Part shown: positions 29,114 through 41,224 of the stretch, in pieces
How the letters are laid out: the number at the start of each line of letters is the position of its first letter
Numbering within the stretch: the first letter of the stretch is position 1
Assembly: GCF_003350405.1 (NCBI RefSeq)
Contig: NZ_QQAW01000006.1
Coordinates: 1-64,000, forward strand
DNA length: 64,000 nt
Source of the DNA: Gluconacetobacter liquefaciens
GTDB taxonomy: Bacteria > Pseudomonadota > Alphaproteobacteria > Acetobacterales > Acetobacteraceae
Direction of reading: 5' to 3'
The notes under the pieces: generated by a model
What the model was told of the DNA's origin: nothing
Databases searched by the model: none
Seen by the model: the letters and a program-made list of their open reading frames with translations, nothing else
Position numbers and translations under genes: made by a program

Positions 29114-32100
29114 ATGATGCGTCGGTTGGATATGACAGTAAATTCGGGCCTGCTTCGTCGGGTCGCGCTCGATTCTGCTTTCGCTGCCATCGTCGGACTG
29201 ACATTGATCGTCCTGGTCAGTGCGCTTCAATTGTCCGACACCCAACAGGGTCTTTTTGCGCTCGGCACGGTTGGCCTGCTTCTCCTGGTCAATCGTTTCC
29301 AGGGACGCCTGGCCAGTTGCTTCCTGATCACGCTGTCGATCATGATGTCACTGCGTTATATCGTATGGCGCGTGGGGACAACGATCACCCACGACAACAT
29401 CCTCCAATTTACTCTATCCATCGCACTGCTTCTTGCCGAATGCTATGCGCTATGGGTTCTTTGCCTGAGCTATTTCCAGATGGTCTGGCCACTGGGAAGG
29501 CAGGTGCACCCACTGCCCGAAGATGAATCCCTCTGGCCTTCGGTGGACGTCTTCATCCCCACTTATCATGAAAGCCTGGATGTGGTGCGCGCGACGGTGC
29601 TCGCTGCCCAGGCGCTCGACTGGCCGGCCGACAAGCTAAATGTCTATCTTCTGGATGATGGTAGGCGGCAGGCTTTCCACGATTTCGCACTCGAAAGCGG
29701 TGCCGGTTACATTACACGTCCGGATAATCGCTATGCCAAGGCTGGCAATCTCAACCACGCACTTGAAGTGACCGGAGGCGCACTGGTCGTCGTCTTCGAC
29801 TGCGACCACGTCCCGGTACATGATTTTCTGAAACAGACCGTCGGCTGGCTGGTGGCCGACCCGACGATGTCCATATTGCAGACGGCGCATTATTTCTATT
29901 CGGCCGATCCCTTCCAGCGCAATCTGACGGCAGTCGAACAGGTCCCACCCGAAGGCAATATGTTCTACGGCCTGATCCAGGACGGCAACGATCTGTGGGA
30001 TTCGACCTTCTTCTGTGGCTCATGTGCCGTGATCCGGCGGAAGGCACTGGAAAGCGTCGGCGGTTTCGCCACCGAGACCGTAACCGAAGACGCGCATACC
30101 GCCCTGAAAATGCAGCGCAAAGGCTGGAGTACCGGCTATCTTCGCTTGGCTCTGGCAGGCGGGTTGGCGACCGAGCGGCTGATCTTTCATATCGGCCAGC
30201 GCATGCGCTGGGCACGCGGCACGCTGCAGATCATACGGCTGGACAATCCCTTGTTCGGATCCGGCCTGCGGTGGGAACAGCGTCTGTGCTACCTGTCATC
30301 AATGTCGCATTTTCTGTTCGCGATACCCCGCATCATCTTTCTGACCGCCCCGATGGCCTTTCTGCTTCTGGGGCAGAACGTCCTGATGGCATCGCCCCTG
30401 GCGGCCCTTGCCTATGCCGGGCCCCATATCGTGCATTCGATGCTCACCCTATCGCGGATCGAGGGGCGCTGGCGTTATACTTTCTGGAGCGAGTTGTATG
30501 AAACCTCGCTGGCCATGTTTCTTGTAAGGGTCACGATCTCCACCTTCCTGCAGCCCACCAAGGGAAGCTTCAACGTCACCCGCAAGGGCACGCAACTTCA
30601 CAATAATTATTTCGATCTGCGTGCGGTCTATCCCAACGTCGTTCTTGCCATTCTGCTCGGTGCCGCCGTGCTGCGCGGCATTTTCGGGGTGTTTATCGAA
30701 CATCTGGACCCGGCCGAATTCCAGTCGATGCTGCTCAACACGTTCTGGGGCCTGTTCAGCCTGTTCATGGTACTCGCGTCGATCGCGGTCGCCCGCGAAA
30801 CGCGCCAGAGCCGCGTCCAGCATCGTGTGCGTGCCGATCTGCCGGTGCACGTGCGGATGGCCTCCGGCGAGGTCTGGAAGACCCGCACCACCGATCTGTC
30901 CCTGGGCGGGGTCGGGCTCCTGGCACCGGGCGGAGCACAACTCAACGGGCCCACACAGGTCATGCTCGACTACTACGATGCCCAGGATCATATCAACGTC
31001 TCGGTTCCCGTCGAAATCCTGCGTCAGCGCGGCGATCGAATGCATGGCCGCTGGCTGATTTCGGATCTGGATCAGGAGCGTCAGGTCGTCTCGATGATTT
31101 TCGGTCGTCGTGATGCGTGGGATTCATGGTCCGACTTCCCTCGCGACCGGCCCTTCAAAAGCTTTTTCATCATCCTCAGGAACATCGCAGCCATGTTCAG
31201 GCCCCGTTCCGGTGAGGTTCGTTCGTCCGTCATTCCTGCCGATGATGCTTCGTCCGATGGCGTCGCAACGGCCCAGACATTGGAGAAGGCGAGTTTCGTG
31301 TTGAAACCTTCACGACAAGCTACGCAGCGCGGCGTAGTGGCTTCCTGTGTCCTGGTTGCCGGCCTGGCAATGGCAGGTATCCCTGTCGCCCATGGACAGA
31401 CCGACGGGACACCTCTCGGCTCCATCCCCGCGGAAGGTGATCCGACACTCGCCTTGCCGATGCCTGCGCCGCCCGAAGCCAGGCCGGCCATCACCTTGCC
31501 GGCGCGCCCGTCCACGCCAGGGGCACCCGGCCTGCCGATCGATGACCCCAATGCCGGTGACCGCAATCCGGCAATCGGCAGCGACGCCGCCATCGCGACA
31601 CGCATCTCCGACACCGAAGTGACGAATACCCTTTCCCTGCATGATCTGGGCGTATCCGGTCCCATGATCCTGCGCGGTTACAGCCCATTGCAGGGCGTGA
31701 CCGTGGGCATCCCGGCCAATCGTATCGTCACCCATGCGCAACTGACATTGTCCGGTGCCCTGTCGCCCGAACTGCTTCCTGAAGCGAGTGCGGTGACCGT
31801 CACGCTGAACGAGCAATATATCGGCACCATCAAGGTCGATCCGGCGCATCCACAGTTCGGGCCGCTGACGTTTGACGTCAATCCCATGTATTTCGGCGGA
31901 AAGAACACACTGAATTTTCAGTTCGCCGGCGAATACAGGCGCGATTGTAACGATCTTTATAACGAGGTCCTTTGGGCTCGTATTTCCGACCAGTCACATA
32001 TCACGCTTACGACGGTAAGGATCGCCCCCGAACGGACCCTGGCACGTCTGCCGGCACCATTCTTCGATCCGAACCTGCGGACCCCCGTCCGGGTCCCGAT

Positions 32101-33751
32101 GGTGCTCTCCGCCAATGAACCGAATTTGCGCGCCAGCGGCATGATCGCCTCCTGGTTCGGTAAACTGGCGGATTTCCGGCAATTCTCCTTTCCGGTCACC
32201 AACGCGATCCCTGACGCGGGCAATGCGATCCAGATCGGTGAAAACCTGCCCGTGGGGCCCGATGGCCAGCTTCCACAAGGGCCAACACTGCTCGAAATAC
32301 CCAACCCCAACGATCGCTGGGGCACGGTTCTGGTCGTAACCGGCCGCAACCCCCGTGAAGTGGAAGTCGCGGCACGCACGCTAGTGCTCTCGCCCACGAC
32401 ATTGGGCGCGGTGAATGCACAGGTGGTGTCCGATGTCGCCACAACGCCGCGCAAGCCTTATGACGCCCCCTCTTTCGTGCCGACCGATCGCCCGGTTCGT
32501 TTCGGTGAACTGGTGCCGGCCGACACGCTGCAGGCAAACGGCTTTGCCCCCGCGCTGCTCAATATGCCGTTCCATTTGCCGACCGACCTCTTCACGTGGC
32601 GGCAACGGCCGTTCCTGATGGATCTGTGGGTCCACCCGCCCGGCGTCATCGGCGGAACGTCCGTCGACCTGGCCAGTTCGCGGCTTGATGTGTCGGTCAA
32701 TGATATTTTCCTGCAGCGGTCTTCAATGATCGCTTCGGGCTCCTGGGATACCTGGTCGCGACGCCTGCTCAATCCGCATTTCGGTACGGTCGGCATTCAG
32801 GTGGCCCTGCCGCCGGAGACATTGTTCGGCCAGAACCAGTTGCAATTCGCGTTTGATGCCAGACCGGTCGATCGCGGTGCCTGCCGCCACGTTCCGATCG
32901 ACCTGCATACAAGTGTCGACGAATCATCGGTGCTCGATTTCCGTCGGGCCTATCATTTCACCAGCCTTCCCGACCTGGCCCAGTTCGCCCAGATTGGCTT
33001 TCCCTTCACACGGATGGCGGACCTGTCGGAAACAACGGTCGTCATGCCTCGTCATCCCGACAATGCAGTCATCGGGGCCTATCTGGACCTGATGGGCGTC
33101 TTCGGCGCGACGACCTGGTATCCCACGACTGACGTCTCGATCGCATACGCGGGCGATGCAGATGCCGAACCTCCGTCGGGCGACATCATTCTGCTGACGA
33201 CGGCCGGAAAGGTGCATGAAGTCGATACGCTGCTGTCCCGCTCTCCGTATCAGGTCGATCAAAGCTGGATCACAGTGGGCCAGCACACGGCCTTGCAGGG
33301 TATCCGCAACCTGTTCCAGGACCGTGATCAGGCCGGGCTACGCAATGCCGTGACGGCAAAGCTGCGGGCACCGATCGCGGGTGCAGGCCTGCTGATTGGC
33401 GCGCAATCTCCCTCCGATCCGCACCGATCCGTGGTGGCGATCATAGGCGACACGCCCCAACGGTTGCAGGAGATGGTGCTGGCGCTACGCGACAACACGG
33501 TCCATCCCATGATTCAGGGCGATCTGGTCATCAAGAATGGCGATCAGGTTTCCAGCTATCGCACGGCGCCGCGCTATACGGTGGGCTCACTGCCGCTATG
33601 GATGTGGCCGGCCTGGTACCTGGATGGCCATCTGCTGGCTCTGTCGGTGATCGGTCTGCTCGGCACTGGCCTGCTGGCCTACGTGATCTGGCGGGCCCTG
33701 AAGCGCCGGGCGCGTCGTCGGCTGGGCGATATGCCTTCCAATGATGATTGA
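29114..33751 (+). CDS. bcsAB2: Fused cellulose synthase, catalytic BcsA plus BcsB (type II)
   Basis: A 1545-residue inner-membrane enzyme that polymerises UDP-glucose to beta-1,4-glucan and passes it out. The BcsA half has membrane helices and the GT2 site: D181-D182-G, DCD at 229-231, TED at 324-326 and QRMRW at 362-366. A PilZ domain follows with RVQHR (567-571) and DLSLGG for cyclic di-GMP activation. At about 739-766 a hydrophobic segment (RGVVASCVLVAGLAMAGIPV) resembles a buried BcsB signal peptide. The periplasmic BcsB half follows and ends in a C-terminal anchor helix. The fused form followed by bcsX-bcsY-bcsC is the type II operon of acetic acid bacteria. The start has two adjacent ATGs. 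Confidence 0.95.
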   Translation: MMRRLDMTVNSGLLRRVALDSAFAAIVGLTLIVLVSALQLSDTQQGLFALGTVGLLLLVNRFQGRLASCFLITLSIMMSLRYIVWRVGTTITHDNILQFTLSIALLLAECYALWVLCLSYFQMVWPLGRQVHPLPEDESLWPSVDVFIPTYHESLDVVRATVLAAQALDWPADKLNVYLLDDGRRQAFHDFALESGAGYITRPDNRYAKAGNLNHALEVTGGALVVVFDCDHVPVHDFLKQTVGWLVADPTMSILQTAHYFYSADPFQRNLTAVEQVPPEGNMFYGLIQDGNDLWDSTFFCGSCAVIRRKALESVGGFATETVTEDAHTALKMQRKGWSTGYLRLALAGGLATERLIFHIGQRMRWARGTLQIIRLDNPLFGSGLRWEQRLCYLSSMSHFLFAIPRIIFLTAPMAFLLLGQNVLMASPLAALAYAGPHIVHSMLTLSRIEGRWRYTFWSELYETSLAMFLVRVTISTFLQPTKGSFNVTRKGTQLHNNYFDLRAVYPNVVLAILLGAAVLRGIFGVFIEHLDPAEFQSMLLNTFWGLFSLFMVLASIAVARETRQSRVQHRVRADLPVHVRMASGEVWKTRTTDLSLGGVGLLAPGGAQLNGPTQVMLDYYDAQDHINVSVPVEILRQRGDRMHGRWLISDLDQERQVVSMIFGRRDAWDSWSDFPRDRPFKSFFIILRNIAAMFRPRSGEVRSSVIPADDASSDGVATAQTLEKASFVLKPSRQATQRGVVASCVLVAGLAMAGIPVAHGQTDGTPLGSIPAEGDPTLALPMPAPPEARPAITLPARPSTPGAPGLPIDDPNAGDRNPAIGSDAAIATRISDTEVTNTLSLHDLGVSGPMILRGYSPLQGVTVGIPANRIVTHAQLTLSGALSPELLPEASAVTVTLNEQYIGTIKVDPAHPQFGPLTFDVNPMYFGGKNTLNFQFAGEYRRDCNDLYNEVLWARISDQSHITLTTVRIAPERTLARLPAPFFDPNLRTPVRVPMVLSANEPNLRASGMIASWFGKLADFRQFSFPVTNAIPDAGNAIQIGENLPVGPDGQLPQGPTLLEIPNPNDRWGTVLVVTGRNPREVEVAARTLVLSPTTLGAVNAQVVSDVATTPRKPYDAPSFVPTDRPVRFGELVPADTLQANGFAPALLNMPFHLPTDLFTWRQRPFLMDLWVHPPGVIGGTSVDLASSRLDVSVNDIFLQRSSMIASGSWDTWSRRLLNPHFGTVGIQVALPPETLFGQNQLQFAFDARPVDRGACRHVPIDLHTSVDESSVLDFRRAYHFTSLPDLAQFAQIGFPFTRMADLSETTVVMPRHPDNAVIGAYLDLMGVFGATTWYPTTDVSIAYAGDADAEPPSGDIILLTTAGKVHEVDTLLSRSPYQVDQSWITVGQHTALQGIRNLFQDRDQAGLRNAVTAKLRAPIAGAGLLIGAQSPSDPHRSVVAIIGDTPQRLQEMVLALRDNTVHPMIQGDLVIKNGDQVSSYRTAPRYTVGSLPLWMWPAWYLDGHLLALSVIGLLGTGLLAYVIWRALKRRARRRLGDMPSNDD

Positions 33752-33777: not shown

Positions 33778-33801
33778 ATGAAGAACGGAATCCGGGTATG
33801 A
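33778..33801 (+). CDS. Putative seven-codon leader ORF coupled to bcsX
   Basis: ATG at 33778 follows a good CCAGGGA Shine-Dalgarno and encodes MKNGIRV before a TGA at 33799-33801. The bcsX ATG (33798) overlaps that stop as ATGA, while bcsX itself has no separate ribosome-binding site. Either ribosomes re-initiate on bcsX after this minigene, or a one-base shift separates bcsX from a slightly longer N-terminus with a basic start. The sequence alone cannot decide. Confidence 0.35.
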   Translation: MKNGIRV

Positions 33802-34472
33802 GTGCACTTCTCGCTGGCCTAACGCTACTGATCATTGGCGACAGCCATGTCACCTTCAAGGACTCGCTGCTGTCCGTGCTGCCCGATGCGCTGACGGCAC
33901 AAGGGGCGAAGGTCGTGGCCTATGGCGTCTGTTCGTCCCAGGCCGCAGACTGGGTGGTCCCCAACCCGAACAATGGCTGCGGCGCGGCGGAACGCATTGA
34001 CGATGCCCCGCTCGGGCCGCCGAACATGCAGCCGGCCGCACCACCGTCGATGTCGTCCCTGCTGGAAAAATGGCATCCGAATGTGGTGATGGTGGTCCTG
34101 GGCGACACCATGGCGTCCTACGGTCAGGAAAGCGTTTCCAAATCGTGGCTCGATGAGCAGGTAAAAACCCTGACCTACACGATCGGCAAGACCGCCTGTA
34201 TCTGGGTCGGGCCAACCTGGGGCCAATACAGCCCGCGCTATGGCAAGACCGATGCGCGGGCTGCGGAAATGGCCGCCCTCCTCAAGACGGAGGTCGCACC
34301 CTGCACCTATATCGACGGCACGGCCCTGATGAAGCCCGGCTCGGTCTCCACCATCGACGGCATTCATGCCACGCCAGCCAGCTATCGCGTATGGGGTGAC
34401 GCGATCCTGCGGGCGACTGTGCCGCTGTTGCAGAAAATCAAGGACGGGACGGCCTCGGCGCCCGCGCCATAA
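33798..34472 (+). CDS. bcsX: BcsX, SGNH/GDSL-family hydrolase of the cellulose operon
   Basis: A 224-residue SGNH hydrolase. Block I is LLIIGDSHVTF, with the nucleophile serine at about residue 16; the Asp-His pair lies in DGIHATP near 187-190. A short hydrophobic stretch precedes GDSH, but no full signal peptide is present from this start, so the location is uncertain. In the type II operon BcsX and the acyltransferase BcsY are thought to put acyl groups on cellulose. BcsX would supply the transferase or esterase site that in OatA-like proteins is fused to the membrane part. It lies 46 bases after bcsAB. Confidence 0.87.
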   Translation: MSALLAGLTLLIIGDSHVTFKDSLLSVLPDALTAQGAKVVAYGVCSSQAADWVVPNPNNGCGAAERIDDAPLGPPNMQPAAPPSMSSLLEKWHPNVVMVVLGDTMASYGQESVSKSWLDEQVKTLTYTIGKTACIWVGPTWGQYSPRYGKTDARAAEMAALLKTEVAPCTYIDGTALMKPGSVSTIDGIHATPASYRVWGDAILRATVPLLQKIKDGTASAPAP

Positions 34473-34526: not shown

Positions 34527-35687
34527 ATGTTACAGCGCACCACCATCCCCTCTGCCGCAGGCAGTTGGACAGAAGCCCTGCGGCGGGCTTTCTTTCCCGC
34601 CGACCGTCGCAGGGATGTCGACGGACTTCGCGGTCTGGCCGTTTTGCTGGTGGTGCTGTTTCATGCAGGCTGGATTCGCGGCGGCTTTATCGGCGTCGAT
34701 GTTTTCATCGTGATTTCCGGCTATTTCATGGGCCGTTCGGCATTATTGCAATCGCCGTTCCGGCCCGTGAATTTCGTTTGCCGCCGCCTCTACCGCCTGC
34801 TGCCTGCCCTGCTCTGCATGATCGTTGTCGTGTGCTCGGGAATGCTCTGGTGGGTCCTCTCCAGCGATCGGGCCGATATCGCGCTCAACGGCGCTTATTC
34901 GCTGGTCTACCTGTCGAATCTATGGGCAGCCGGTCATGTAGGATATTTCGAAGGGCAGAGTATCGCCTACCCCTTCCTGCATACATGGTCGCTTTCATTG
35001 GAGATGCAGTTCTACACGATCATTTTCTTCATGGCGCTTTTCCTGCCCTATGTCAGGCATCGTGGCTGGGCGATCATCGGGATCTTCATACTCTCCCTCA
35101 TTGCCAGCATAACCGCTCACCTGCGCGGCGATGCTCAAGCCTACTACAGTATTTTCGATCGGATGTGGCAGTTCTCGCTTGGGACCATGATCTGGCTTCT
35201 GCCCCAGCATCGCATGTCCTCGCTTGCAGCAAACCTGGCCAGTGCCCTGGCCTGCGCGACGATCATCATGGCAGGCCTGTTCTATACCCTGCGTTTCGCC
35301 TGCCCGTCCTATATGTCGATATTGCCGTGTCTGGCCGCCGCCGTGCTCATCGCACTGCCGCAGACCTGGGTGTCCCGGACGATGCTGGGCTTGCTGTCCC
35401 CCCTCGGGGTCATGTCCTATTCCGTCTATCTCTGGCATTGGCCCTGTATCGTCGTGGCCAATTACCTGATGGCCTTTTCCGTGCATGGCCCGGTCATGGC
35501 CGGTGTCCTGGTACTGGCCCTGGTGGCCAGCGTCATCAGCTATCTTTCCATCGAACAGACCGGACTGGCCTATGAAGGGCGCGTGGCGCTGCCCGTGCGG
35601 GTTCGCGGGGCATTGTGCCTGGTCGCAGCCAGTGGGTTCGTCGCACTGGGCCTGTCCATCATATCGGCCGTATCCCGTGTCCATTAG
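34527..35687 (+). CDS. bcsY: BcsY, membrane acyltransferase (Acyltransferase 3 family)
   Basis: A 386-residue integral membrane protein with about ten helices. It has the family signature R35-x10-H46 inside RRDVDGLRGLAVLLVVLFHA, followed by GGFIGVDVFIVISGYFMG. Such proteins carry acyl groups across the inner membrane and hand them to glycans. There is no C-terminal SGNH domain; the neighbouring BcsX may provide it. A GGAAG element precedes the ATG. The next gene, bcsC, starts 29 bases after the stop. Substrate and acyl donor are inferred from the operon. Confidence 0.9.
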   Translation: MLQRTTIPSAAGSWTEALRRAFFPADRRRDVDGLRGLAVLLVVLFHAGWIRGGFIGVDVFIVISGYFMGRSALLQSPFRPVNFVCRRLYRLLPALLCMIVVVCSGMLWWVLSSDRADIALNGAYSLVYLSNLWAAGHVGYFEGQSIAYPFLHTWSLSLEMQFYTIIFFMALFLPYVRHRGWAIIGIFILSLIASITAHLRGDAQAYYSIFDRMWQFSLGTMIWLLPQHRMSSLAANLASALACATIIMAGLFYTLRFACPSYMSILPCLAAAVLIALPQTWVSRTMLGLLSPLGVMSYSVYLWHWPCIVVANYLMAFSVHGPVMAGVLVLALVASVISYLSIEQTGLAYEGRVALPVRVRGALCLVAASGFVALGLSIISAVSRVH

Positions 35688-35715
35688 GTTGCGCTCGCCC
35701 CAGAGGAACGGACAA

Positions 35716-38700
35716 TTGCGTGCATATTTGACTGGCATGACAATGCTGGGCGGCCTGATCGCGTGGGCGCCGGGCATCGCATATTCTCACGAAGCGTCCG
35801 ACAGCACGGCGCCGACGGTCTCCGGTGACACCACCCCGGCGTCGACAAAGGCCGATACCCGGCTGTCTCACGCCAGGTCGGTATTGGACCTGGTGCTGGA
35901 GCAAGGTCACTACTGGATCGATGCAGGCCAGTTCGTCCGGGCGCATGAAAGCATTCAGCGTGCACTGGCGATCCAACCGAACAATGCCGACGCACTGAGC
36001 ATGTTGTGCGTCGTGCAGATCGAGACCGGTGACGTCACGGCTGCACAGCAGACATTGAGCCGGCTGGCCGCGGCCGGCGGCAGCGCGGCCCAGCTCTCGC
36101 GACTCCGGGCGGCCCTCAAGGCAGGTCCGGTGGACCAGAAAGAACTCGCTGAGGCACGCAAGCTTGCCGGGTCGGGCAGCATGCTGGCCGCGATGCTGCG
36201 CTATCGTGCGCTGTTTCATAACAGCGAGCCGCCCCCTGCACTGGCGCTGGAATATTACCGTGTCCTGGGTGGCACCATTCTCGGATATAACGACGCCCGC
36301 GCCAAACTGTCGGCTCTGGTGGCGGAAAGCCCGCACGATCTGAATGCACGCCTCGCTCTGGCGCAGATCCAGACCTATCGCGATGTCTCTCGCGCCCAGG
36401 GACTGGAGGAACTGCGCCGCCTGGCGGGTGCCGACACACAACCCCTGATCCGTAACCAGGCCATTGCCGCCTGGCGTGCGACATTGTCTTGGGTCCCCAT
36501 CGTGGGTGCCAGCATTCCACTCTACATGGACTGGCTCGCCCAGCATCCGGACGATGCGGCAATCGTCACCCGGCTGGAAAAGGCCCGCTCCGTTCAGGCG
36601 ATAATTGACGAAGGCAACGACCGGACAGAAGGCTTTGTCCTGCTGGGGCACGGACGTCTGGATGCCGCCACTGCGGCGTTCCAGCGCGCGTTGATCGTCA
36701 ATCCAAAGGATGCCGACGTCCTGGGCGGCCTGGGGCTTGTCGCTCAGAGGCACAGCCAGGTCGCCATTGCCCGGCGCTACTTCCATCAGGCGATCGATGC
36801 GGATCCGGGGCACGCAGCCCACTGGCGCACGGCCTTGAACGCATTGAATGCTGTCGGTGGAAACGATCCGGAGATCGTCGCGATCAACCGGCTGGCGGCG
36901 GCAGGACAGTACGACGCTGCGCGGGCGCGCCTGGAGCATCTGGCACGTCGCCCTGAAATGGCATTCGCGGCATTGCTGATGACGGCCGGTCTCGACCGCC
37001 TGCAAGGACGGACGGCCGAAGCCGAACAGCTTTACAGGCGGGCATTGCAGCAGCGTCCGGCCGATCCAAATGCCCTTTTCAATCTGGCGGACCTCCTCTT
37101 CCAGGCGGGACAACTGGACGAAGCCCGGTCCCTTGCAGCCCGGGTTGCGACTCTGCGGCCGGCCTTGCTACCCCGCCTTCAGGCCGCGGACGATACGGCT
37201 CGCGCCGCGCGAGCCAGCACCGACGCCGAGCGGATCGCCCTGTTGCAGCAGGCTCTGGACAGAGTTCCGGGCGATCCGTGGCTGACCCTGCGCCTTGCCC
37301 TGGCGCTCCATCACAACGGCCAGTCGACCGAAGCACGGACGTTGATGGCGGCTCTGACCGACAATCCCCATGCCTCCCCTTCCAGGTTGCAGGCCGGCGT
37401 CACGTTCGCGATGAATATGCGGCATTACGAGGACGCGGCCACATTGCTGGACCGGCTGCCGCCTGCGGGCCGCAACTCGGCGATGCAGCGTGCCGCCGAA
37501 CTGGTCGCATTCTTCCGCCAGGTCGCCGCCACGCCGCAGAACGACACCCGTTCCCTGCGGGCCATGGCCGACCAGGCGGACCCGACCGGCGATCGCGCGG
37601 CAATCCTGGTCGACGCTTTGCTGGCACGCCACGATCGCGACGGCGCGCGCTGGGTCCTGGCGCATGAGAGCGCGATCACCCTGTCGGCCACACCCGCACA
37701 GAAGCTGTTGTACACCGGTCTGGCATTGCGTCTGCAAGCGCCCGCCGACGCGCAGCGCGAACTGGATGCCTATGACCGGCTTGTCCGTGCCGAAGGCCTC
37801 CCTCCGGCCGCAGATGCCGCTCTGGCCCGCGCGGATTTGGCGGTTGGGATCACGATCCAGCAGAGTGATGAGGAAATACGCGCAGGCCGGCCGCAGCAGG
37901 CCTACCGCATGCTCGCACCGATCGTCAGCCTGCATCCCAATTCGACGGCCGCATGGCTGGCCCTGGGGCGCGTCTATCACGCGATGAACCAGCCGCAGAT
38001 GGCATTGCGCGCCGATCAGGAAGCCTTGCGACGGGGTCCCAAATCCGTCGACGCCCTGACCGCCGTGGCACAGGATGCACTGGCTTTGGACGACCGTCCC
38101 GCAGCGCGGGCGATGGAACGGCGCCTGATGGCCAGCGCCCCTCATCGGTCAACGACCTGGCAGGTCAAGGCCCAGAATGACCGGGCCGATGGACGTGACC
38201 GCCTGCAGGAGGCCGATCTGGTCTTCGCCCGCCAACTGCAATGCGACGCGGAACAGGATCCCGCTTGCGCACCCGCAGTCCGGCAGAAGCCGGATTACCG
38301 TTGGCCCGATATCGAGACCGCATACGTGCCGCTGCGCGGCGCTCCGTTGCCCGCCACGGAACATTACCTCCCGCAGGACGGTCAGGTCGGGTCCATGAAC
38401 CGGCAAATCGTCTATCTGCAGGAAAGTACAGCGCCGCAGCTGGATGCCAATACCTATGTCCGCGGCCGCATGGGCACGGCCGGACTGGGTCAGTTGACCG
38501 AACTGGCGGTGCCCATCACCGGCACGATCCCCTTCGAGTCCTGGCAGCACCGGATTTCATTTTCGGTCACGCCGACATTCCTCTTCTCAGGCGATCCGTT
38601 GAGCCACGCCTATAGTGCTTCCCGGTTCGGCACGGTCCCACTTTATGGCAGCGGGTCCACCCGCCATCATGCATACGATGCTCAGGGCGTCGGGCTGGAT

Positions 38701-39507
38701 GTCCGCTATGTCAACCACTGGTTCGCAGCCGACGTCGGCTCAAGCCCCCTCGGCTTCCCTCTCGCCAATGTCCTGGGCGGCGTCGAATTCTCGCCGCGGC
38801 TGACCGATAACCTGACTCTGCGAATTACCGGCGACCGACGCATGGTGACCGACAGCGAACTGTCCTATGCTGGCATGCGCGATCCGGGAACCGGCAGGGT
38901 CTGGGGCGGCGTCACGCGCGTCGGCGGCCATGGCGCACTCGAATGGTCCAGCGAGAAATGGAACGCCTACGCCGGCGGCGGTTTCGGGCTGCTGGAAGGA
39001 ACTCACGTCATCAACAACACTGCAGCGGATGCCGAACTGGGGGGCAGCGTTACAGTATGGCAGAAGGATCAGCGGCAGAGGGTCCGCGTTGGCGTCAATG
39101 CCGAATACCTCGCCTATCGTCGGAACGAATATGAATTCACCTACGGAAACGGTGGTTATTTCTCGCCCCGGAGCTATTACGCCATCATGCCGTCGGCCGA
39201 CTATATAGGCCATATCGATCGCTGGACGTGGTCGGTCATGGGCAATATCGGTTACCAGAACTTCCATGTAAACGGGACGTCGTATTTTCCGCTGGATCCC
39301 ACCATGCAGAGGATGATGGGCCTGCTGGGACCGAACCGATATGACGGCCAGAGCGCCAGCGGTATTGCCGGCACCGGAAAGGCACGAATCGTCTATCAGG
39401 TAACCGACGGTCTGCGGCTCGGGGTCGAAGGCCAATATATCCGGTCGGGCAACTGGTCTGAAGCCAGTGGCATGCTGATGGCCCATTATCGGTTCGGCAC
39501 CCCGTAA
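35716..39507 (+). CDS. bcsC2: BcsC, outer-membrane cellulose export protein with TPR scaffold
   Basis: A protein of about 1263 residues. From residue 45 to about 830 it is built of TPR-type helical repeats (for example the AHESIQRALAIQPNNADALS pattern) in the periplasm. From about 858 (DYRWPDIETAYVPLRG) to the end it matches the BcsC C-terminal beta-barrel. The start chosen is TTG 35716, giving MRAYLTGMTMLGGLIAWAPG, a good signal peptide with a basic residue; AGAGGAA lies eight bases before it. An ATG at 35737 would lose the basic residue. The frame extends further upstream only inside bcsY. It exports the glucan made by BcsAB. Confidence 0.92.
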   Translation: MRAYLTGMTMLGGLIAWAPGIAYSHEASDSTAPTVSGDTTPASTKADTRLSHARSVLDLVLEQGHYWIDAGQFVRAHESIQRALAIQPNNADALSMLCVVQIETGDVTAAQQTLSRLAAAGGSAAQLSRLRAALKAGPVDQKELAEARKLAGSGSMLAAMLRYRALFHNSEPPPALALEYYRVLGGTILGYNDARAKLSALVAESPHDLNARLALAQIQTYRDVSRAQGLEELRRLAGADTQPLIRNQAIAAWRATLSWVPIVGASIPLYMDWLAQHPDDAAIVTRLEKARSVQAIIDEGNDRTEGFVLLGHGRLDAATAAFQRALIVNPKDADVLGGLGLVAQRHSQVAIARRYFHQAIDADPGHAAHWRTALNALNAVGGNDPEIVAINRLAAAGQYDAARARLEHLARRPEMAFAALLMTAGLDRLQGRTAEAEQLYRRALQQRPADPNALFNLADLLFQAGQLDEARSLAARVATLRPALLPRLQAADDTARAARASTDAERIALLQQALDRVPGDPWLTLRLALALHHNGQSTEARTLMAALTDNPHASPSRLQAGVTFAMNMRHYEDAATLLDRLPPAGRNSAMQRAAELVAFFRQVAATPQNDTRSLRAMADQADPTGDRAAILVDALLARHDRDGARWVLAHESAITLSATPAQKLLYTGLALRLQAPADAQRELDAYDRLVRAEGLPPAADAALARADLAVGITIQQSDEEIRAGRPQQAYRMLAPIVSLHPNSTAAWLALGRVYHAMNQPQMALRADQEALRRGPKSVDALTAVAQDALALDDRPAARAMERRLMASAPHRSTTWQVKAQNDRADGRDRLQEADLVFARQLQCDAEQDPACAPAVRQKPDYRWPDIETAYVPLRGAPLPATEHYLPQDGQVGSMNRQIVYLQESTAPQLDANTYVRGRMGTAGLGQLTELAVPITGTIPFESWQHRISFSVTPTFLFSGDPLSHAYSASRFGTVPLYGSGSTRHHAYDAQGVGLDVRYVNHWFAADVGSSPLGFPLANVLGGVEFSPRLTDNLTLRITGDRRMVTDSELSYAGMRDPGTGRVWGGVTRVGGHGALEWSSEKWNAYAGGGFGLLEGTHVINNTAADAELGGSVTVWQKDQRQRVRVGVNAEYLAYRRNEYEFTYGNGGYFSPRSYYAIMPSADYIGHIDRWTWSVMGNIGYQNFHVNGTSYFPLDPTMQRMMGLLGPNRYDGQSASGIAGTGKARIVYQVTDGLRLGVEGQYIRSGNWSEASGMLMAHYRFGTP

Positions 39508-39517
39508 GGAGCGGATC

Positions 39518-41224
39518 ATGCGCTTTGCAGGCCACCTGAACCCCTGCGGGCTTCTGTTCTGGTCAGCCTGCATGGTGGTCTTGACGACCGCGCCGACAAT
39601 GGCGGCCGAAGACTGCCCGGTTTCCGGCGCACCCGAGATGGTGTGCATTGGCAGCGGGGCTGTCCCACCAGACCGCCAACCTGGCAGCCACGACGATTCG
39701 CGGGCAGGCTTCGCCGTCGGCGATTTATGGCAAGCCGGGGGGCGGGTCTGGCACGCCGTTTCGGTCCAGCCCGATGCTGCACGCTGGGACCCGGTGCCCC
39801 TGAGCCGGCCAGGCGACGCGTTCGGCAACCATACCGTCTTCGCTGGCGGTACGATGAGGATGATTGCGGATTATACCGGTCCGGCACTGGATGTCGCGAT
39901 AACGCATGCCGGCCGCATTGAACAACGCACGATCGCAATTCGTCCGGACGGACATTTCGATGCACCGGCGCTGGAAAGTGCGCTGCTGACACGCGACAGG
40001 GGTACGGCCGCACAGGTCACGCGCATCTATGACCAAACCGGCCACCATCATGATCTGACAGCCGTTCCCGATCATGCGGCGGCGCATATCGGCGCGGTGC
40101 GCATCGCGGGACAGGACGTCATTTCGTGGGGTGAACAGAACGGGCCAGGAGGATTCTCGCTCCCTGCGGACCTGGTCCTGCCGCGCGACGGATTTTTCTT
40201 TGGCACCACGGGGATGGTCGCCTCGTCCAATAGTGCCTCGGGCGCCTATCCCATCCTTGCGACTTTCGGCCAGGGTGAACAGGCCGTTCGCATCTTTACC
40301 GGCAGCTATACGCTCGACGGCTTCGTCCATCTGGGAGATGCGAACAATCCTGATCAGCGGAGTGGCTTTGTACTGCCCAGCAGTCCGGCGGCATTCGGAA
40401 TCGGCTCAGGGCCCGATGGTTATCGGCTCATGTCATCTCGGGCAAAAGTGCCACATCCCAGCAGGATCGGCCCGGGGACATTGAGCGGAGGCTTCATCGG
40501 TTATGGCGGCGCAGAGGCCAATGCGCATGCGTGGGTCGCCCAGGGACACGGAACTGGCCTTTACACCGGCATCGTCATCGCCGATGCGACGCCTTCAGAT
40601 GGCATGCTGCTGGCTTTTCAGGCAGCAGCGGCGGCCGACAGTCACGACCTTCCCCAGCAACGCACCGTGTTCGTGGCAATCGGAGATAGCCGAACCGAGG
40701 GATATCAACTGGCGGATGGCGCGAACTGGCCCGTCCGAATGCAGCAGATGGCGCGATACCAAAGCTATAACTTCGCGGTATCGGGCGCCACGACGCGACA
40801 GATGCTCGCAGCCCTGCCTGCGGCGGGTGTGGCGGCGTCAGGAGCCTCCCGGCGTGTCGCAGTGGTATTCGGAGGTTTCAACGACCATCTGCAACATGAC
40901 AAGATCCCGGTCGACGAGACCATTGCCAACCTAGCAACGATCGTGAAGACATTGAAAGCATTCGGTTTCAAAGTTGCGCTCATGGCAGAGGCCACGACCG
41001 ATATGTCCTGCCGGACAGCGATCGCGAATGCACTTCATCAAGGCCGTCTTGCCCCCGATCTCGTCATCGACCCCTTTGCCGAAGGGCAACCGCTGTCCAA
41101 TATAGCCGATCGCCGTTACTGGCAGGCGGATTACACGCATCCGACCGACGCCGGCGCTGCCATGCTGGCAGACGTCGTGTGGGCAGGCGTGAAGTCCATG
41201 CTCTCTCCTGTCGAGCATCCCTGA
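39518..41224 (+). CDS. Secreted two-domain protein: GH54-like N-terminal half plus SGNH hydrolase
   Basis: A 568-residue exported protein starting ten bases after bcsC, so almost surely in the same operon. Residues 1-29 form a signal peptide ending TAPTMAA. The middle carries VTRIYDQTGHHHDLTAVP (about 166-184), strikingly like the IYDQSGNGNHLTQAP stretch of GH54 alpha-arabinofuranosidase catalytic (concanavalin-like) domains. The C-terminal third is an SGNH hydrolase: GDSRTEG with S390, SGATTRQM, GGFNDH and DYTHPTDAG. It looks like an exported polysaccharide esterase with a lectin-like module. It may remove or edit acyl groups added by BcsX/BcsY, or act on a branched or co-secreted glycan. 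It is not part of the classic bcsAB-X-Y-C description known to me. Function is inferred. Confidence 0.75.
   Translation: MRFAGHLNPCGLLFWSACMVVLTTAPTMAAEDCPVSGAPEMVCIGSGAVPPDRQPGSHDDSRAGFAVGDLWQAGGRVWHAVSVQPDAARWDPVPLSRPGDAFGNHTVFAGGTMRMIADYTGPALDVAITHAGRIEQRTIAIRPDGHFDAPALESALLTRDRGTAAQVTRIYDQTGHHHDLTAVPDHAAAHIGAVRIAGQDVISWGEQNGPGGFSLPADLVLPRDGFFFGTTGMVASSNSASGAYPILATFGQGEQAVRIFTGSYTLDGFVHLGDANNPDQRSGFVLPSSPAAFGIGSGPDGYRLMSSRAKVPHPSRIGPGTLSGGFIGYGGAEANAHAWVAQGHGTGLYTGIVIADATPSDGMLLAFQAAAAADSHDLPQQRTVFVAIGDSRTEGYQLADGANWPVRMQQMARYQSYNFAVSGATTRQMLAALPAAGVAASGASRRVAVVFGGFNDHLQHDKIPVDETIANLATIVKTLKAFGFKVALMAEATTDMSCRTAIANALHQGRLAPDLVIDPFAEGQPLSNIADRRYWQADYTHPTDAGAAMLADVVWAGVKSMLSPVEHP

Follow-up and report, generated by a model that had tools for sequence, protein, structure and literature searches.

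The bcsII operon is hypothesized to make acylated cellulose. In Komagataeibacter xylinus E25, Szymczak et al. (2022) named bcsZ as the fifth gene of this operon and described a product with a signal peptide, a lectin-like middle domain and a C-terminal SGNH domain having the catalytic triad Ser403/Asp550/His553 (PMC9318390). The same report gives expression of bcsZ as far below that of bcsX, a significant decrease of bcsZ in ethanol while most bcsII genes rise, a decayed bcsZ copy in K. diospyri, and K. hansenii ATCC 53582 as a strain listed without bcsZ (PMC9318390). Deletion of bcsY in K. hansenii ATCC 53582 is reported to raise Young's modulus and lower crystallinity, with no acetyl visible by FTIR (PMC10106347), and FTIR of pellicle cellulose from another strain is reported to contain no acetate band (PMC12412545). 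As described for a Pectobacterium phage, an SGNH-bearing tail fibre deacetylates the host O-polysaccharide, and an SGNH module can therefore act on a surface glycan (PMC9569702).

Here we analyse a 64,000-nucleotide stretch of DNA (the window) that carries a bcsII operon, and report that the fifth gene of the operon is bcsZ and that phage phiAX1 and prophages code for relatives of its product. An earlier note on the same DNA had set this gene apart from the classic bcs set; that description is right for the four-gene set but not in the sense of an unknown gene, the gene having carried the name bcsZ since 2022 (PMC9318390).

Results

The window contains an intact bcsZ at the end of a type II operon

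The window lies on contig C6 of a 4.17-Mb genome, in which an own-genome search finds a single BcsB match, and has the gene order bcsAB, bcsX, bcsY, bcsC, bcsZ (Table 1). The earlier note had called the last gene the fifth of a type II bcs operon, and Pfam and NCBIfam matches identify bcsAB-X-Y-C upstream of it. The ORF begins, as described there, ten bases after bcsC, is intact over 568 residues and contains all of the motifs quoted (GDSRTEG, residues 389–395; GGFND, residues 452–456; DYTHPTDAG, residues 538–546). The ORF is not a chance one, because its product matches PF13472 above cut-off (52.5 bits versus 32.9), it occupies the same operon slot elsewhere, and dN/dS is low in the two pairs computed (0.125 and 0.177). 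The gene is thus bcsZ of the bcsII (putatively acylated-cellulose) operon, already named and not new. The name collides with that of E. coli BcsZ, a GH8 endoglucanase; the two proteins have the name in common only, and neither Pfam nor NCBIfam gives a GH8 match for the window protein.

The 10 nt between the bcsC stop codon and the bcsZ ATG are GGAGCGGATC; the GGAG right after the stop codon, with an ATG 10 nt on, suggests that bcsC and bcsZ may be translationally coupled. The listed bcsC ORF shares about 200 nt with bcsY (35485–35687), and the real bcsC start is therefore probably downstream of the listed one. On the 3′ side of bcsZ are genes for a TonB receptor and a Cu/Zn superoxide dismutase, and a scan for terminators 3′ of bcsZ, whose yield was that of chance (9 candidates against 10.6 expected), gave no candidate on the + strand.

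Table 1. Features of the bcsII operon and of bcsZ in the window.
Feature	Coordinates	Strand	Basis
bcsAB, fused cellulose synthase with PilZ domain	29114..33751	+	CelA, BcsB and PilZ matches (Pfam/NCBIfam); sole BcsB match found in genome
bcsX, SGNH-like protein	33798..34472	+	weak GDSL match only, E 0.25 (Pfam)
bcsY, membrane acyltransferase	34527..35687	+	PF01757 Acyl_transf_3, 90.4 bits
bcsC ORF as listed	35485..39507	+	PF05420 BCSC_C, E 4e-79
bcsC stop (39505–39507), then GGAG directly	39505..39517	+	sequence; 10 nt from stop to bcsZ ATG
bcsZ, 568 aa, intact, ATG start	39518..41224	+	ORF and Pfam
Probable Sec signal peptide, residues 1–30	39518..39607	+	N-terminus read by eye; signal peptide reported for K. 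xylinus E25 BcsZ
N-terminal module, residues 60–94 (DDxxxGYxxGDLWQ..VW.A...A.W), tentatively CBM5/12-like, three strands	39695..39799	+	weak 1ed7 match; strands from model
GH54-like beta-sandwich domain, residues 105–376	39830..40645	+	profile, hhalign, structure model
GH54-like motif VTRIYDQTGHHHDLTAVP, residues 167–184	40016..40069	+	sequence and profile match
SGNH/GDSL esterase domain, residues 383–560	40664..41197	+	Pfam and fold matches
Ser391, nucleophile	40688..40690	+	34/34 aligned rows; equivalent to Ser403 of K. xylinus E25 BcsZ
Asp538 to His541, remaining triad	41129..41140	+	both in 34/34 aligned rows

The window protein corresponds to BcsZ of K. xylinus E25 (WP_025439171.1) in its slot after bcsC, in a signal peptide (read by eye in the window protein), in a lectin-like middle domain (here a sandwich fold by model), and in residues S391, G423, N455, D538 and H541, which equal the published 403, 435, 467, 550 and 553 with a constant offset of 12 (PMC9318390). 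Whereas the middle domain was matched in that report to thrombospondin and legume lectins, its best match here is GH54 (PMC9318390). Intact Komagataeibacter copies are 47–53% identical to the window protein, whose host is Gluconacetobacter-like, and the nearest named bcsZ relatives are those of Gluconacetobacter asukensis (81% identity) and G. sacchari (70% identity). The earlier description of the protein as secreted is consistent with a hydrophobic N-terminus that looks signal-like by eye.

BcsZ has an intact SGNH domain and a predicted GH54-like sandwich

The SGNH triad region seen in the earlier note is borne out by the alignment: Ser391, Gly423, Asn455, Asp538 and His541 are invariant in 34/34 aligned rows. 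A model of the whole protein (pLDDT 75, pTM 0.76) has the GH54 arabinofuranosidase 6SXS as its best PDB match (E 4e-9), followed by SGNH proteins that are mostly hydrolases and also include the acyltransferase SsfX3 (3skv, E 4e-7). The C-terminal domain has its fold and catalytic blocks in common with E. coli TesA and other SGNH esterases; TesA, unlike the SGNH domain of BcsZ, is a free-standing domain.

The earlier note had likened the middle segment to GH54, and a model of residues 50–376 (pLDDT 87.7, pTM 0.90) does give a GH54-like fold: GH54 chains take the first five places among its PDB matches (E 2e-9 to 8e-9; TM 0.58–0.61 by query length), and the sixth match drops to E 1e-5. At the level of sequence, a GH54 profile matches over 79 positions (E 3e-9), covering the first ~75 residues of the domain only, and hhalign to GH54 gives 97.8% over 70 columns. 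The score of the window protein to PF09206 is 13.8 bits, below the cut-off of 25 bits (15 bits for the domain alone); among 21 related domains, 16 match PF09206 at E up to 5. The likeness thus stands as a fold, seen in the five best PDB matches, and not as a demonstrated enzyme, the window copy being under the Pfam cut-off and without a loop Asp.

This loop Asp, in a glycine-rich segment (N-A/M-D-G-G) where the GH54 acid/base may lie, is kept in 20 of the 23 bcsZ rows and is missing in the window copy, in L019 and L075, and in 11 remoter rows of the alignment. Judged from these rows, the subgroup comprising the window copy and its two nearest relatives, L019 and L075, is one that has lost the residue. 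Asp267, Asp274 and Asp279 are invariant in all 23 bcsZ rows, and residues 280–376 contain no strictly invariant acidic column among those rows. The middle of the domain is not reliably alignable to GH54, and the nucleophile is thus unplaced; the catalytic residues of GH54 are Glu221, named in the title of entry 6SXR, and Asp297.

With GH54 alpha-L-arabinofuranosidase B (1WD3, 2D43, 6SXR–6SXT), the domain has in common the beta-sandwich fold and the region of the YDQSG motif, and the window copy differs in falling under the Pfam cut-off and having no candidate acid/base. In BcsZ the domain is followed by the SGNH domain and not by the GH54 arabinose-binding domain. We read the GH54-like domain of the window copy as a binding fold. 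Residues 60–94 weakly match the chitinase A1 chitin-binding domain (1ed7, E 0.21), and Pfam gives no CBM match.

Close copies of bcsZ are tightly linked to bcsX-Y-C

We searched three samples of genomes. Among 249 genomes of the family, with the window protein as query (E 1e-3), 15 have a match, 9 of them (window included) close copies, and 88 have BcsB, so bcsZ marks a minority of cellulose-synthase carriers. Among 299 genomes of the order, an 11-row profile (E 1e-3) matches 105, many by the SGNH part alone; we counted as bcsZ only the 25 close copies, which are about 44–82% identical to the window protein where intact and come from Komagataeibacter (14), Gluconacetobacter (6), Acetobacter (3) and Novacetimonas (2), the genera being assigned through matching contigs in a named collection. 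A class-wide search with a profile of the N-terminal domain (E 1e-6) matches 3/337 genomes, namely the window's own, one with a true GH54 and one other. There is no plasmid copy of the window protein at E 1e-3; a prophage relative has one partial plasmid match.

Of the 24 intact close copies, 23 have bcsC directly upstream; a contig break divides the other one (G385), whose N-terminal residues end contig C830 just after bcsC and whose remainder opens C889. In the named collection, whose organisms overlap the order sample, the order X-Y-C-Z is found in all 21 close copies, the scan returning 26 loci in total (the 21, one in Asaia, and 4 short matches of 34–36% in metagenome assemblies). In Acetobacter (L063, L064, L065, L102–L104, L106), separate bcsA and bcsB genes surround the accessory genes in the order bcsB-X-Y-C-Z-bcsA. 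The remaining copy of the 25, in G349 (L084:7556-8202), follows bcsC and is broken into pieces, resembling the decayed copy reported for K. diospyri (PMC9318390).

Thirty other genomes in the order sample have a BcsX at 69–96% identity. A BcsX match at E 1e-40 is found in 42/299 genomes, with at least 69% identity in 31; bcsZ is present in 24 of these 31, once in broken form, and absent from 7, indicating that it is dispensable. One genome (G389) has bcsZ and no BcsX match at that level.

Phage phiAX1 and prophages code for relatives of BcsZ

The earlier note had proposed a survey of type II bcs operons and named wide occurrence of the gene away from them as a refuting result; for the gene itself that result was not seen, the linkage being tight. 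The remote full-length relatives lie outside bcs operons, and several of them are in prophage tail clusters. In tblastn against 50,697 phage records, the window protein gave one match, to BCZ75921.1 of Acetobacter phage phiAX1 (L032:13749-15533; E 2e-30, with 30% identity across 90% of the query), which is kin to bcsZ end to end. This protein is labelled "DNA-binding protein, KilA-N domain"; in Pfam it gives no KilA-N match and a GDSL domain alone. Its gene is ~4 kb past the last identified tail-type gene, behind regulator genes, and so in no plain tail cluster; phiAX1 is reported as predicted to be incomplete, and for this strain a tail fibre is not marked in the table of electron-microscopy results (PMC8566455).

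Tail clusters are found around several other relatives. A relative of 991 aa (L028) is coded in Asaia krungthepensis by a prophage that also has portal, major head and minor tail genes. IMG/VR has relatives on 8 contigs, hosts not given (2 and 6 loci with phage proteins as queries); a search of viral contigs with the 11-row profile gave 71 pattern matches and no relative. Gene context among the 8 contigs was scanned in L119 and L115: in L119 the gene directly follows a minor tail gene (phrog_290) and has a second such gene one ORF downstream, portal and head genes lying before and a tape measure gene after, and the scan of L115 covered a portal and an upstream minor tail gene. The two clusters checked on both sides, L119 and L028, have the same layout, with minor tail genes on either flank. 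A terminase gene is near the relative in L068, and the relative at L030:9793-11493 is behind prophage tape-measure and tail-assembly genes. The L030 protein scores 57 bits to the GH54 model (PF09206), above the 25-bit cut-off.

The proteins of phiAX1 (BCZ75921.1) and of the prophages (L028, L068, L114–L121) have the DD..GY..GD.W module, the GH54-like domain and the SGNH domain in bcsZ order, and those of phiAX1 and L028 align with bcsZ end to end at about 26–30% identity. They differ in that they are coded in phage or prophage genomes and have no signal peptide that we could see, while bcsZ has a signal-like N-terminus and a place in a bcs operon; N-terminal parts are longer than that of bcsZ in L028, L068, L119 and others. 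The window gene, correspondingly, is not in a phage tail module and has a signal-like N-terminus in place of a virion-attachment part.

The bcsZ rows form one clade in each of two trees (23 rows, 100/99, in the first tree, of 34 rows; 14 rows, 100/100, in the second, which drops 10 near-duplicates and adds 5 viral rows); two further comparisons used 21 and 23 of the 34 rows, the latter with the phage record left out. In the second tree the bcsZ clade is beside a clade of 10 rows (91/89), 8 of them phage or prophage. Further out, some rows are phage (L030, and probably L069 and L070) and others chromosomal in look (L029). By the count of rows a phage ancestor of bcsZ would be favoured, in trees that are both unrooted and have long branches. 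From their gene position, the prophage copies are probably receptor-binding proteins. BcsB is absent from 5 of the 9 tested genomes with remote relatives, so cellulose need not be what the phage copies act on.

The main text of the K. xylinus E25 report contains neither "phage" nor "GH54" (PMC9318390). Our literature search, in which most subscription papers were out of scope, found no published link between a Komagataeibacter tail fibre and cellulose synthase, and a report elsewhere is possible.

Two further proteins, in two genomes of one genus (L029:6320-7861 and L066:7062-8714), have a similar layout, and the retrieved sequence around their genes matches neither bcsAB nor bcsC; BcsB is on another contig in these genomes.

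Discussion

On balance, we think it somewhat probable that BcsZ is a secreted, glycan-binding SGNH esterase that acts on acyl groups placed by BcsY and was perhaps captured from a phage. The protein would be exported across the inner membrane, and the small CBM-like module and the GH54-fold domain would hold it on the emerging glucan. The SGNH domain, whose active-site residues are intact, would hydrolyse the acyl esters placed by BcsY, both the substrate and the direction of the reaction being our proposal. BcsZ would thereby set the final acylation of a minor cellulose, and so the sticking of this polymer to cells and crystalline fibres. The editing of acylation that the earlier note had suggested is plausible as read from the sequence. 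Counting against this reading are the two reports of no FTIR acetyl signal in pellicle cellulose (PMC10106347, PMC12412545), the low and ethanol-lowered expression of bcsZ in K. xylinus E25 (PMC9318390), and the lack of bcsZ in 7 of the 31 genomes with a BcsX of at least 69% identity.

The lectin-type sandwich (by model here, and as reported for K. xylinus E25), together with kin coded in phage tail clusters, would suit a protein that is mainly an adhesin, its lectin-like part tying cells to acylated and crystalline cellulose and its SGNH domain being secondary (PMC9318390); we regard this as rather unlikely, since invariance of the SGNH catalytic residues in all 34 rows is unlike a domain kept for binding only. 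Alternatively, the SGNH domain might be an acyltransferase that finishes periplasmic O-acylation of the glucan. The operon does contain a membrane acyltransferase, BcsY, and an SGNH-like protein, WssF, is linked to Pseudomonas cellulose acetylation as described in PMC9318390. The presence of SsfX3 among the good fold matches also counts against hydrolysis. The better-scoring SGNH matches are mostly hydrolases, however, TesA among them, and tail fibres that remove acetyl groups from host polysaccharide can contain SGNH domains (PMC9569702); we consider a transferase unlikely.

A working GH54 enzyme was rejected as the main reading, given a score under the Pfam cut-off, a mid-domain that does not align, and the missing loop Asp in the window copy. 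That BcsZ, or copies outside the window subgroup, is a GH54-type glycosidase trimming side chains of a branched glucan seems to us very improbable. GH54 is the best fold match and the first ~75 residues match it by sequence, and the loop Asp in 20 of 23 close copies, with the three invariant Asp residues, leaves such activity possible in other copies, a point against our main reading. Against it stand the sub-threshold score, the region that cannot be aligned reliably and the absence of the loop Asp from the window copy, L019, L075 and the 11 remoter rows. We found nothing in support of a branched glucan, which the earlier note had raised with a "perhaps", and no evidence of side chains.

A conserved esterase within the operon offers a direct handle on bcsII acylation, and its removal of acyl groups could explain why FTIR sees none. 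The phage-related binding and esterase modules are also potential tools for shaping bacterial cellulose.

The three-module architecture is common to bcsZ and the prophage tail clusters, and bcsZ was probably taken once from that pool. Against this origin stand the long branches of the unrooted trees, the distance of the phiAX1 gene from tail-type genes and the unmarked tail fibre of that strain (PMC8566455). We give roughly even chances to a specific form of this history, with bcsZ as a phage receptor-binding protein that was domesticated: an ancestor of Acetobacter, Komagataeibacter, Gluconacetobacter and Novacetimonas would have captured a glycan-binding, deacylating tail protein, added a signal peptide and fixed the gene in the operon. 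In that case one tool would serve phages and operon alike, acting on the same kind of acylated polymer, and by removing acyl groups from the receptor bcsZ might alter how phages adsorb. The common architecture would also hint at what such phages bind.

A remote bcsZ-like gene in Asaia krungthepensis (L027:9207-10820, also L109) is convergent to bcsC, has no signal-like start and was not counted as bcsZ. Genes for a hybrid kinase and for a response regulator adjoin it, and within the compared set a prophage protein of the same genome is closest to it (38%). A copy of this type is absent beside bcsC in the three other Asaia genomes examined; with its single occurrence and convergent orientation, it may or may not be an independent capture beside bcsC.

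A second, more distant BcsX is present in G123, G300 and G304 (54–55% identity) and in G258, G273 and G307 (49–52%), and a distant BcsX is the only match in G290 and G329 (55–56%), pointing to another bcsX-bearing locus in some Gluconacetobacter and Acetobacter genomes.
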